Source: Planctomycetota bacterium (lineage in GTDB: Bacteria > Planctomycetota > Planctomycetia > Pirellulales > UBA1268). Taken from it: 64,000 bases of DNA. The translations under genes and the position numbers were made by a program. The notes beneath the pieces were generated by a model, which worked only from the letters and a program-made list of their open reading frames with translations, did no database searches and was not told the DNA's origin. The DNA is taken from contig VGZO01000009.1 in assembly GCA_016872555.1 (NCBI GenBank), positions 1 through 64,000 of the forward strand, given 5' to 3'. Shown here piece after piece: positions 1-47,117 of the stretch (positions within the stretch are counted from its first letter, which is position 1; each line of letters starts with the position of its first letter).

Positions 1-214
1 CCGGGAAAGCCCGCCGCACGATGCGGCGCCCGTCGACCGTGGGAACCCTCGGCGTTCCCACCGGTCGACCGGAGGTGACAAAGGCCATGGAGGGCTTTGT
101 CACCGGGAAAGCCCGCCGCACGATGCGGCGCCCGTCGACCGTGGGAACCCTCGGCGTTCCCACCGGTCGACCGGAGGTGACAAAGGCCATGGAGGGCTTT
201 GTCACCGGGAAAGC
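1..214. repeat. 102-bp tandem repeat of hairpins (2.1 copies)
   Basis: A unit starting CCGGGAAAGC recurs at 1, 103 and 205, so the period is exactly 102 bp; the third copy breaks off after ten bases. Each unit holds three inverted repeats: a GCCGCA/TGCGGC stem, a longer GTCGACC...GGTCGAC stem with GGGAAC/GTTCCC inside, and a 25-bp imperfect palindrome with GACAAAG/CTTTGTC arms (77-101 and 179-203). The 25-bp core returns in reverse complement at 44309-44333 in another tandem array. The array ends about 50 bp before pyrB. No T-tract follows the hairpins, so a simple intrinsic terminator is unlikely. It resembles REP/BIME-type intergenic elements in architecture only. Confidence 0.9.
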
Positions 215-261
215 TAGAATCTCCGCCGCGCCATCGCTTCCCCCCTTCGCCTTTCGTGCCG

Positions 262-1242
262 ATGCCCACCGCTCCGTTCACCACCGAAGCCCCCCCCGCG
301 TGGCGGCACCGTCACCTCCTCGACCTCGAGCGGCTCGACGCCGCCGAGATCGAACTGCTCCTCGACACCGCCGGGCGGTTCAAGGAGGCGACCGACGGCT
401 GCCGCACCAAGCTCGCAGTCCTCGGCGGCCGGACGGTCGTGAATCTGTTTTTCGAGAACTCCACCCGCACCCGCACCAGCTTCGCCCTCGCCGCCCGGCG
501 GCTAGGCGCCGACGTGGTCGACTTCTCGGCCTCGGCCAGCAGCCTCGCCAAGGGGGAGTCGTTCATCGACACGGCGAGGAACCTCGAAGCGATGGGGATC
601 GACGTCGTCGTCGTCCGCCACGCCACGCCGGGCACGCCCCACCTCCTGGCGCGGCACCTCGCCGCCGGCGTGATCAACGCCGGCGACGGTCCCCACGAGC
701 ACCCCACCCAGGGGTTGCTCGACATCTTCTCGATCCGTGAACGGCGCGGGAGCCTGGCCGGGTGCACGGTGGGCCTCGTCGGCGACATCGCCCACAGCCG
801 CACGGCGCGCTCGAACCTCCACGGGCTCCTTGCCCTCGGCGCGAAGGTGATCCTTTGCGGCCCGCCGACGCTCGTCTCGCCGCGCTGGGAGGAGCTCGGC
901 GCCGAGGTCTCGCACGACCTCGACGCGATCATCCCTCGCTGCGACGTGCTCAACCTGCTGCGGATCCAGTTCGAGCGGCAGAACACGCGACCTTTCCCGT
1001 CGGTTCGCGAATATGCCGCGCTGTACGCGATGACCGGCGAGCGCCTCCGCCGGGCCCGCCCCGAGCTGCTGATCCTCGCCCCCGGTCCGATCAATCGGGG
1101 CGTGGAGATGACCGCCGACGTCGCCGACTGCCCGCAGTCGGTGATCCTCGACCAGGTGACCAACGGCCTGGCGGTGCGGATGGCGGTGTTGTGGCTGTCG
1201 TGCAACGCCCGGCCGGCGGCCGCGGCGGGAGGGCAGGGCTGA
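262..1242 (+). CDS. pyrB: aspartate carbamoyltransferase catalytic subunit
   Basis: Catalyses carbamoyl phosphate + L-aspartate to N-carbamoyl-L-aspartate, the committed step of pyrimidine synthesis. The 326-residue protein has the carbamoyl-phosphate signature STRTRTSF at 67-74, KGES at 97-100, HPTQ at 147-150 and PGPINRG near the C-terminus, in family order and at normal length. I chose the ATG at 262; an in-frame ATG at 199 would add 21 residues encoded partly by the upstream repeat and is implausible. The stop overlaps the pyrC start (TGATG), so the two are translationally coupled. No pyrI regulatory subunit is nearby. Confidence 0.97.
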
Positions 1243-27214: not shown

Positions 27215-27495
27215 CGAAAGGCTCCCGGTGGGGTGGCTGTCGGTCGGGGGCACGGTCCGTGGTCCCCGAGTCGGCGGCTACTCTATCGGTCCGCCCCCGG
27301 GCCTGCCAAACCGCGGCGGCGGGCCGCCGAACGGGCAGACTGAAGACCGCCGCGGGATTCTGCCGATCTTTCCGCGGGGTCCGGTGCACGCGTCACGAAG
27401 CGCCCGACCGGTTCGACCCCCGGCCGCCGTCACTGCTTGACCAGCCTTCCCGGGTTGCCGTAGCGTGAAGGGGTCAGGGAAAGCTCCCGCACACG

Positions 27496-27567
27496 GCTCC
27501 GTAGCCAAGTGGCTAAGGCAGCGGATTGCAAATCCGCCATCGTCGGTTCGACTCCGACCGGAGCCTG
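27496..27567 (+). tRNA. tRNA-Cys (GCA)
   Basis: A complete cloverleaf: acceptor GGCTCCG/CGGAGCC, short D arm, anticodon stem GCGGA/TCCGC with loop TTGCAAA giving anticodon GCA at 27529-27531, and T arm GTCGG/CCGAC around TTCGACT. Base 27567 is T, the discriminator typical of tRNA-Cys. CCA is not encoded. It lies between gnd (divergent) and the beta-strand-repeat gene (convergent). Confidence 0.96.
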
Positions 27568-43474: not shown

Positions 43475-44299
43475 GTGAACAAGTACGTCCGCGCGGTGCT
43501 CCATCTGGCGCGGGCCCTCGCGACGAGCCCGGTCGAGGCGGCGACCCGAACGGTGTGGTCCCTGCCGTTCGCCTGCGCGGCCGGCCGGTTCGCCCGGCGC
43601 TACACCGACCGTGCCCCCAGCCCCCTGGCCGCGCCGAAGCCCCCGGCCGAAAACGTGCTGGCCGACTTCTTCCAGGCCCGCACGAGCGGTCGCGGCGTGT
43701 GGAAATGGGAGCACTATTTCGACGCCTACCACCGCCACCTCTCCCGGTTCGTCGGCCGCCCGGTCCACCTCCTCGAGATCGGGATCTACAGCGGCGGCAG
43801 CCTGGAGATGTGGCGTGCGTACCTCGGCGCCGACTGCCGGATCACGGGCGTCGACGTCGAACCGGCCTGCAAAGCCTACGAAGACGAGCGCACGAGCGTG
43901 CTGATCGGCGACCAGGCCGACCGGGAGTTCTGGCGCCGTGCCGCCGCGGGTCTGGGCGGGCTCGACGTGGTCGTCGACGACGGCGGCCACACCCCCGAGC
44001 AGCAGCAGGCGACGCTCGAGGAACTGCTTCCCTTGCTCCGCCCCGGCGGGGTCTTCATCTGCGAGGACGTCCACGGGACCACCAACCGCTTCGCCGCCTA
44101 CGCCGCCGGACTCGTCGACGAGCTCAACCGTGCCGACTACACCACCACGCGGCCGCCGCAGTGCGCCGTCTCGGGCTTCCAGGCGGCGATCCACTCGATC
44201 CACTTCTATCCGTTCATGGTCGTGATCGAGAAGCACGACCGCCCCCCCGAGCGGCTCGTCGCCCCGAAGCACGGCACGGAGTGGCAGCCGTTCCTCTGA
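43475..44299 (+). CDS. class I SAM-dependent methyltransferase (MycE-like)
   Basis: A 274-residue protein with a Rossmann-fold SAM site: HLLEIGIYSGGSLEMWRAY (motif I), ITGVDVEP (motif II), DVVVDDGGHTPEQQ and LLRPGGVFICEDVHG. This layout resembles the sugar O-methyltransferases of macrolide pathways such as MycE, with the DDGGH metal motif. N-terminal 50 residues are basic and hydrophobic, possibly membrane-associated. The start is a GTG at 43475, close behind fur. It is followed directly by the second hairpin repeat. Substrate unknown. Confidence 0.85.
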   Translation: MNKYVRAVLHLARALATSPVEAATRTVWSLPFACAAGRFARRYTDRAPSPLAAPKPPAENVLADFFQARTSGRGVWKWEHYFDAYHRHLSRFVGRPVHLLEIGIYSGGSLEMWRAYLGADCRITGVDVEPACKAYEDERTSVLIGDQADREFWRRAAAGLGGLDVVVDDGGHTPEQQQATLEELLPLLRPGGVFICEDVHGTTNRFAAYAAGLVDELNRADYTTTRPPQCAVSGFQAAIHSIHFYPFMVVIEKHDRPPERLVAPKHGTEWQPFL

Positions 44300-44305
44300 C
44301 TTCAC

Positions 44306-44460
44306 GTGGACAAAGCCCTCCATGGCCTTTGTCCACTTGAGCGGCCGCATCCTGCGGCCGGGTCCTGGGCCGTGGACAAAGCCCTCCATGGCCTTTGTCC
44401 ACTTGAGCGGCCGCATCCTGCGGCCGGGTCCTGGGCCGTGGACAAAGCCCTCCATGGCCC
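44306..44460. repeat. 66-bp tandem repeat of hairpins (2.3 copies)
   Basis: A unit beginning GTGGACAAAG recurs at 44306, 44372 and 44438, period 66 bp; the third copy is truncated after about 20 bases. Each full unit holds two hairpins: GTGGACAAAG/CTTTGTCCAC and CGGCCGCA/TGCGGCCG. The 25-bp core GACAAAG...CTTTGTC (44309-44333, 44375-44399) is the exact reverse complement of the core in the repeat at 1-214. It fills the gap between the methyltransferase stop and purB. Confidence 0.92.
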
Positions 44461-44503: not shown

Positions 44504-45946
44504 TCACACGCGCATGCGCGACTCGGGGGCGCTGGCCGGGCAGCCGGCGAGGGCGACCTGCACGGCGCCGGCGACGAACTCCTCGACCTGCCGGGCGGCG
44601 CGGCCGGCGAGCCCGTCGGGGTCCATCGCCGCGCGGATGTCGACACCGGCGAACAGCGGATCGGCGGCAAGCCGCTCGGGGAGGTCGTTGGCGTGCCCCT
44701 CGCGGATCCGCGCCGTGGCGGCATGGCTGTGGGTGCGGAGCGCCTCGTGGAGCGTCTGTCGGTCGCCGCCCGCGGTCGTCGCCGCCATGAGGATCTTCTC
44801 GCTGGCGAGGAACGGGAGATGGGCCTCGAGGTTGCGGCGAATGCCCCCCGGCAGCACGACCAGCCCGCCGGCGATGTTGGCGTAGATCACCAGTTGGGCA
44901 TCGGTCGCGAGGAACGCCTGGGGCAGCACGAGGCGGCGCGGCGCGGAGTCGTCGAGCGTCCGTTCGAGCCACTGTACGGCGGCGGTCTGGCTGGCGGTGG
45001 TCGCCAACCCCATCACGAACCGGGCCAGCCCGCACATCCGCTCGGCACGCATCGGATTGCGCTTGTACGGCATCGCCGACGAGCCGACCTGGTCCTTCTC
45101 GAACGGTTCCTCGAGCTCCCCCCAGGCGGCCGCCAGCCGGAGGTCGTTGCCCGCCTTGTGGGTCGATTCCGAGACCCCGGCCAGCGCGGCCACGACCTGC
45201 GAGTCGACCTTCCGCGTGTAGGTCTGCCCGGTGACCTCGTAGGAAGAGTGGAACCCGAGCTTGTGGGCCACCAATTCGTCGAGACGGCGGACGCGGGCGT
45301 GATCGCCGCCGAACAGCTCGAGGAAGCTCGCCTGCGTGCCGGTCGTGCCCTTCACGCCGCGGGCGCGGAGCAGCTTGCGGCGGTGGGTGATCTCCTCGAG
45401 GTCGAGGACGAGATCGTGGATCCACAGGCAGATCCGCTTGCCGATCGTCGTCGGCTGGGCGGGCTGGAGGTGGGTGCGGCCGAGGCACACGAGGTCCTTC
45501 GTCTCCAGCGCGCGCCGCGCCAGCCGCTCGATCACGCCGGCGAGCCGCGCCGCCACGAGGTCGAGCGATTCGCGCATCAGGATCAGGTCGACGTTGTCGG
45601 TGACGTAGGCGCTCGTCGCCCCGAGGTGGATGATCGGCCGGGCCTCCGGGGCGGCATCGGCGAAGGCGTGGAGATGGGCGAACACGTCGTGTCGCATCCG
45701 CCGCTCGTATTCCGCCGCCTTGGCGAAGTCGACCGGCTCGAGCGCGGCGCGCATCGCCGCCAGCTGGCCGGCCGAGATCGGCAGGCCGAGCTCGGCCTCG
45801 GCCTCGGCGAGGGCCAGCCACGCCCTGCGCCACGCCGTGTAGCGGTGCTCGTCGCTCCACAGCCGCGCCATCTGCGCCGAGGCGTAGCGCGCCGCCAGCG
45901 GGTTGTTCCAGACATCGTGCCGCTCGTCGTTGCCCGCCGACTCCAC
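44504..45946 (-). CDS. purB: adenylosuccinate lyase
   Basis: Cleaves SAICAR and adenylosuccinate in purine synthesis. 480 residues of the fumarase/aspartase superfamily: signature [43 protein letters not shown] and [16 protein letters not shown]. The start is the GTG at 45946, six bases after GGAGG; the frame continues upstream to 46024 without a ribosome site. It follows holA by 25 bp on the same strand. Confidence 0.95.
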
Positions 45947-45971
45947 GTCGTTCCTCCCCGGCCCGTCGCCG

Positions 45972-47117
45972 TCACCGACCACCCGTTCGTCCACCGTTGC
46001 GGCCCACCGCGCCCGACGCGCCACGTGCCGGACGGGCCGCCGCCCCCGGCGCCGGTCCCGCCAGGCGGCAGAACAGCTCCTCCAGCGCCAGCGCCGCCCG
46101 TGGGCCGCGCGCCGACGTTCCCTTGAGCCCGCGGTCGAGGTGGTGCAGCCACCCCGGCAGGGCCCGCGCCCGGCGCGCCCCGAGGTGCTCCAGCGCCCCC
46201 CGCGCCTGGGCCAGTGCCTTCGGCCACGCCGCCACGCCGGCCTGGCGCAGCGCCTCGTCGATGCCCGCAGGGCGCCCGGCCCCCGGCGGCAGCCCGAGCA
46301 GGCGGGCGGCGCTCGACAGCCGGCGGAGCACCGTCGACGCCTGCGCCGCCAGGGCGATCGGGCTCTCGCCGGCGTCGAGCAGCTCGGCGAGGCGTGCCAG
46401 CGCCGCCGGAGCGTCGCCGGCCGCCGCCGCCTCGATCATGCTCCAGGCCGTGCGGTCGCGCGGCGTGCCGGCGGCATCGTCGACGGCGTCGGGCGGGATC
46501 GGGCCGCTGCCGCCGGTGGCCGCGAGCCGGGCCAGCGCCTGGTCGATCCGTCCGAGGTCGCCGGCGAGGCGTTCGAGGAGCCGGTCGGCGGTGCCGCTGG
46601 CCAGCGCCCGGCCGTGCCGCTCCCGGGCCCACGCCCCGAGCCAGCGGGCGAGGTCGTAGCGGGCGGGGACGGAAGCGTCGACCAGCGTCTCTCGGGCCGA
46701 GGTCGCCTTGGCGAGACGGGTGTTGGCCGGCAACGAGCGGACCTCGAGGATCACCACGCCACGGCCGCCACGGTCGCGGCCGGCCAGTTCCTCCAGCCGA
46801 TCGCGGCACTGCGAGACGAACGCGTCGGCGGTGCGGACCACGGCGGCACGGGTCACCCCCGCGCCGCCGAACAGGGGCAGCGTCGCCGCCTCGTCGAAGA
46901 CGTCACGGGGATCGGCGAGCGCGGTGCCGTCGAACTCGCGCCAGGCACAGTCGTCCGGGGGCTCACCGTCGGCAGGCGTGCCGCCGGCGAACCGCCGCCG
47001 CAGCCAGCGGAGCATCTCGGCGACGAGAAACGGCTCGTCCCCGGCCAGGACGATCAACTCCGCCGTCCCGGGATCCCAGGACTCGGCCGAGCGGAGGACG
47101 TCGAGGGCGAGGGGCAC
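45972..47117 (-). CDS. holA: DNA polymerase III delta subunit
   Basis: Clamp-loader subunit that opens the sliding clamp. 381 residues: [17 protein letters not shown] near the N-terminus, [35 protein letters not shown], and the helical domain with [10 protein letters not shown] and [20 protein letters not shown] that bears the HolA pattern. The C-terminal 30 residues are low-complexity Ala/Gly/Arg. The start is GTG 47117 after GGAG. It is 25 bp upstream of purB. Confidence 0.86.

Follow-up and report, generated by a model that had tools for sequence, protein, structure and literature searches.

The two tandem arrays in the stretch of DNA analysed here (64,000 nucleotides, hereafter the window) belong, in all probability, to a family of MITE-like, non-autonomous transposable elements. 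The element is 119 bp long and forms three hairpins whose stems covary; its terminal inverted repeats are imperfect, and its target duplications are 4-mers of the type CTNN. It would be moved in trans by a DDE transposase, and roughly a third of its copies stand exactly at stop codons of host genes.

The arrays and their element

The window comprises positions 1-64000 of contig C9 of a 4.47-Mb draft genome in 162 contigs. Tandem Repeats Finder delimits a 102-bp unit repeated 2.1 times at 1-214 (array 1) and a 66-bp unit repeated 2.3 times at 44305-44459 (array 2), both at 100% match. Each array contains two complete copies of the 25-bp core GACAAAGCCCTCCATGGCCTTTGTC: at 77-101 and 179-203 (- strand) in array 1, at 44309-44333 and 44375-44399 (+ strand) in array 2. 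These four copies in the window are free of mismatches, and 100 shuffles gave an expectation of none. A preliminary description had reported two arrays with different units sharing this core in opposite orientation, and its positions and the exactness of the match were verified. The features are collected in the table.

Features of the window that bear on the two arrays
Feature	Coordinates	Strand	Basis or remark
Array 1, tandem 102-bp units, 2.1 copies, element variant, left end at 213	1..213	-	clipped by contig start
Hairpin 1 (GTGACAAAG...CTTTGTCAC) with 25-bp core, array 1 unit 1	75..103	-	
Hairpin 1, array 1 unit 2	177..205	-	
CTAG, target-type 4-mer beside outer end of array 1	214..217	.	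sequence
Aspartate carbamoyltransferase (pyrB), neighbour of array 1	256..1242	+	PRK00856 E 1.2e-109; PF02729/PF00185
tRNA-Cys (gca)	27495-27566		
Methyltransferase-domain protein, neighbour of array 2, stop codon = target	43475..44299	+	PF13578 E 2.5e-9
CTGA, left target 4-mer of array 2	44296..44299	+	sequence
Array 2, 66-bp units, 2.3 copies, shortened element without hairpin 2	44300..44460	+	
Hairpin 1 (GTGGACAAAG...CTTTGTCCAC), array 2 unit 1	44306..44336	+	
Hairpin 1, array 2 unit 2	44372..44402	+	
Adenylosuccinate lyase (purB), convergent neighbour of array 2	44504..45994	-	TIGR00928 E 6.9e-115

Alignment of the genomic core sites reveals the core to be hairpin 1 of three in a 119-bp element, which reads, in order, CTGTCC GTGGACAAAGCCCTCCATGGCCTTTGTCCAC, GGCGACC-GGGAAAC-GCCGAGG-GTTTCCC-GGTCGCC, CGGCCGCATCCGGCGGCCG and ATCACTTTTTCCACGGGCTG. 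Its terminal inverted repeats are short as well as imperfect (CTGTCCGTGGA/TCCACGGGCTG, 9/11; CTGTCCGTGG/CCACAGTCTG in the relatives). All three hairpins are present, in variant form, in the units of array 1; those of array 2 have no hairpin 2. As single-stranded DNA the element folds with z = -6.2. Among 30 diverse copies, standard pairs were kept in 91.1% of cells, compared with 40-52% in slid-partner controls; changes on both sides of a pair filled 85 cells, compared with 30.2 after shuffling, and compensated pairs occurred in 3/3 helices. The stems thus covary, and the folding is therefore under selection. Rfam 15 gave no match over the element at four loci.

Both arrays had been described as breaking off mid-unit. 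This was seen, but it is partly an artefact, because the window starts at a contig edge (its base 1 is base 1 of the contig) and array 1 is cut there. The right end of contig C52 holds four further cores in units identical to those of array 1 at 101/102 positions, and it is likely, from this resemblance, that array 1 is longer and that the assembly was interrupted within it. More arrays lie at the ends of contigs C1, C58, C60 and C70, suggesting a failure of assembly within long arrays. The end of C10 and the start of C71 present a single insertion site with 147-bp and 119-bp versions of the element (L087:1507-1653 and L050:102-220), which may be two alleles or assembly variants.

The called start of pyrB lies 38 bp downstream of the CTAG beside array 1. 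The two genes that flank array 2 have homologues in another genus (~74% identity), and between these lies a full-length copy in the same orientation (L078:1501-1619, corresponding to window 44300-44460), with CTAG at both ends.

Distribution and mobility

Genome-wide, the 25-bp core occurs at 56 places with three or fewer mismatches, and the reversed-pattern control at none; the core is thus far from confined to the two arrays. At E<0.01, a covariance model of the element matches the window's genome ~120 times. Of 24 genomes from the same family, 21 have matches, one relative at least 93; the 15 genomes examined from other families of the order have none. A search with one hairpin pattern across 84,980 species returned 57 stretches, all from planctomycete assemblies. 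In one MAG, named Candidatus Kuenenia stuttgartiensis, the copies have longer flanks in common, GAGCCGGTG...GGGTCGGCGAACGC (L166, L173, L174, L180, L195, L205). The name of this MAG looks wrong, and its copies may belong to a larger composite repeat.

The element is mobile, and its insertion has been recent and precise, with a 4-bp target duplication. Among 27 full-length copies, the left and right flanking 4-mers match at 72 of 108 bases, a total that none of 20,000 shuffles reached (shuffled value 51.4), and exact 4-mer pairs number 8, compared with 1.15; the signal appears at length 4 only. The relatives show the same signal at length 4 (47, 31, 32 and 46 of 74). Targets in the window's genome follow CTNN (CTAG, CTGA, CTAC, CTAT, CTGG), and the relatives' commonest target is CTAG.

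The sister genome REEB424 (hereafter G001; ~95% identical in longer alignments) supplies empty sites with exact junctions and one 4-mer each, namely CTAC (in pheH), CTAG (opposite C17) and CTGA (opposite C20:50289); for the copy on C15, the right-hand CTAC is found at the G001 empty site. Conversely, the window's genome is empty opposite the G001 insertions L153, L176 and L196. L191 lacks the copy on C24, the join showing an overlap of 4-5 bp, and L186 provides a further presence/absence comparison, with CTGA in the window's genome. Array 2 is itself absent from G001, where the flank is identical (150/150) up to TGAC and only 28 bp follow in the array's place. The phenylalanine 4-monooxygenase (phenylalanine hydroxylase) gene pheH on contig C40 is split by a full-length copy (L060:2559-2890) and is uninterrupted in G001.

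The exact 4-mer is found in the empty alleles at several sites, not at all. At about five polymorphic sites it differs from that of the occupied allele (CTAG vs CCCG, CTAA vs CGGG, CTAG vs CTGA). Such differences are not predicted by simple duplication and count against our preferred explanation. At L196, L176, L153, L186 and L191 the target 4-mers diverge between alleles more than the flanks do; the occupied allele often has CTAG, and the empty one CCCG, CGGG or CTGA.

The earlier proposal of a dispersed, expanding family of hairpin repeats proved right. That of a mobile core holds as to mobility; the 25-bp core, however, is one hairpin of the 119-bp element and not the mobile unit itself.

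Placement on stop codons

Gene calls for this part came from a simple codon-usage script rather than from standard annotation, and plausible genes were recovered in the window. In a third of the independent copies (33/98), one end lies exactly at a gene's stop codon. Of these, 26 begin right after a same-strand stop (within one base), the target being mostly CTGA or CTAG; three of the 26 were assigned by inspection, where the caller had missed the gene or the match start was offset. The other 7 run up to the stop of a convergently oriented gene. Array 2 obeys the same rule: its first base directly follows the TGA at 44297-44299 that terminates the upstream gene.

This excess was assessed within each 4-mer, a comparison that removes sequence preference. 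It amounts to 26 observed vs 8.3 expected at same-strand stops and 7 vs 1.7 at the other end. Occupied CTGA sites make up 15/139 at stops vs 1/272 in intergenic sequence (P = 6e-7), and occupied CTAG sites 6/9 at stops vs 8/44 (P = 0.007). Further, the excess recurs in G001 (7 vs 3.2 expected) and in other genera (9 vs 2.7; CTAG stops 6/10 vs 4/38, P = 0.0025).

The target duplication preserves the stop codon of the gene. We rejected the possibility that insertion creates the stop by truncating a gene: empty alleles already hold CTGA (opposite C20:50289 in G001, and in the window's genome opposite the G001 insertions L186 and L191), and therefore the stop predates the insertion.

The stop-codon excess could reflect retention rather than targeting. 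For this part of the explanation, we think it quite possible, if short of probable, that the element inserts at CTNN regardless of genes, and that copies at gene ends are harmless and the others are lost. Convergent gaps are indeed enriched (16 copies vs 9.0 expected), and several stop-codon copies are common to G001, as judged by the 123-131 bp spacing of both flanks there. Against survival, 26 copies lie at exact position 0 and only 11 at positions 1-30 (target weights 1469 and 3463). Further, the share at stop codons is flat with divergence from the consensus, at 8/26 (31%) of young, 16/45 (36%) of middle and 9/27 (33%) of old copies, and divergent, promoter-bearing gaps are hardly depleted (20 copies vs 25.2 expected). 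The flat age trend and the slight avoidance of divergent gaps argue against survival alone. A more doubtful proposition, which we advance only tentatively, is that the integration machinery goes beyond its 4-bp rule and actively picks the stops C-TGA and C-TAG as a safe harbour where the host gene stays intact.

Relation to known elements

We favour a scheme in which a DDE-type transposase, acting in trans with a CTAG/YTAR-like target rule, would cut and paste the element. Insertion at C-TGA or C-TAG leaves the stop in the left target copy and starts the element at the next base; landing there would be nearly harmless to the gene and could have allowed the rise to ~120 copies. Tandem arrays would then arise locally, either from a second insertion beside the first or from slippage or unequal exchange of the hairpin-rich units; the unit in some arrays is the element plus 4 bp. 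YTAR targets are documented for IS5 (PMC10359306).

No transposase or complete parent element with the ends of this element was found in the sequence stretches examined, in which long elements bounded by such ends with matching 4-mers were only chance pairs or MITE ends. PF01609, the IS4/IS5-type transposase, is absent from the window's genome, G001 and G008, and is uncorrelated with copy number. Such absences are weak evidence, because draft assemblies and MAGs lose multicopy insertion sequences. Two element copies abut the end of one insertion sequence, with CTAG/ATAG and then TACTACTACGTTAGC (L281:400-542, at the end of C79; L091:1-130, at the start of C53). This insertion sequence is probably multicopy, because both contigs stop inside it.

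Among the families tried, the sole DDE transposase domain in the window's genome is IS701-like (NF033540/PF13546), represented by one truncated and one remnant gene. IS701-type elements also have CTAG/YTAR-like targets. The element might accordingly be a MITE of this IS701-like element, since both adjoin CTAG; a diverged copy with different hairpin stems does lie beside the truncated IS701-like gene in C25 and in G003 (L147:1390-1700, L144:1650-1780). However, the one visible end of the IS701-like copies, the upstream one (TACTACAACGTTAGC... after CTAG), does not match the MITE ends, and G001 and G008, with >90 element copies each, have no match to PF13546. We consider this parentage unlikely. 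We hold it still less likely that the copies are immobile 3'-UTR hairpins or terminators of the host, kept at gene ends and multiplied by recombination. Many copies do lie directly 3' of stop codons, their structure is conserved, and the consensus resembles a terminator in having a hairpin followed by CACTTTTTCC, with one terminator-like match vs 0.3 in shuffles. Two thirds of the copies, however, are away from stops, some within genes (pheH) or in divergent gaps, and their presence or absence between ~95% identical genomes is precise.

The preliminary description had suggested a REP-like repeat, and REP- or BIME-like palindromes spread by a REP-associated tyrosine (HUH) transposase would also be intergenic, present in >100 copies and clustered in tandem. 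In the available part of the literature, GTAG-type REPs and BIMEs with their RAYT are likewise palindromic, abundant and clustered (PMC3733652, PMC2817692), the termini of GTAG-REPs are reported to give flanking ORFs TAG stop codons (PMC3733652), and hairpin 3 of our element (GCCGCATCCGGC) resembles the E. coli REP given in PMC2817692. The same portions present REPs as single hairpins of 20-40 bp with a GTAG head, and describe no target duplications (PMC3733652, PMC2817692). The element here, in contrast, is 119 bp long and folds into three hairpins; it makes 4-bp duplications, and its empty sites are precise. It ends in CTGTCC/CTG with variable CTNN outside, rather than in a GTAG/GTGG head beside a 20-40 bp palindrome, and has no fixed tetranucleotide head outside the stem. 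Nor was a RAYT found in the genus: Y1_Tnp (PF01797, Y1/HUH, REP-associated) is missing from all four genus genomes, that is, the window's own (97.9% complete) and three relatives, and across the family it is uncorrelated with copy number. These findings speak against a REP-like identity, which we regard as the least probable reading of all, even if REP-like effects on RNA ends are possible.

The closest likeness to our MITE-like element is MITEPsy1 of Pseudomonas syringae, an IS5-type MITE of ~100 bp that is non-coding, has terminal inverted repeats and a 4-bp CTAG or YTAA duplication, and whose mobility was demonstrated in vivo, according to the accessible part of its description (PMC3189936). 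MITEPsy1 differs in its unrelated ends (GGAAGGTCTGA...) and its six copies, vs ~120 here; a three-hairpin body, a stop-codon bias and arrays are not described in that part (PMC3189936). The 4-bp CTAG/YTAR duplication of IS5-type MITEs is found here too, with CTAG dominant in the relatives and a wider CTNN in the window's genome; the ends are not of IS5 type. Insertion sequences of the IS5 and IS701 types make similar 4-bp CTAG/YTAR-like duplications (PMC10359306 for IS5), but none of either type with matching ends was seen in the genomes examined. YPAL/RU-2, RUP, Correia/NEMIS and small mobile repeats like them are also folded, non-coding elements of 100-170 bp with target duplications and empty and filled sites; they differ in sequence, host group and target (mostly TA; 3-26 bp for YPAL) (PMC2229807). 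Literature searches on planctomycete MITEs and on stop-codon-targeting insertion elements, which covered open-access papers, did not turn up the present element.

The family is new and MITE-like, and what was not expected of it is a bias towards stop codons that is exact to the base. For most bacterial MITEs and REPs, descriptions go no further than an intergenic location; in this family, placement with respect to the gene is precise to the single base, and the duplication itself keeps the stop. The family thus offers a testable route by which a parasite may reach high copy number without harm. It is also a ready source of insertion polymorphisms and of tandem hairpin arrays, which appear to break short-read assemblies, in uncultured planctomycetes.
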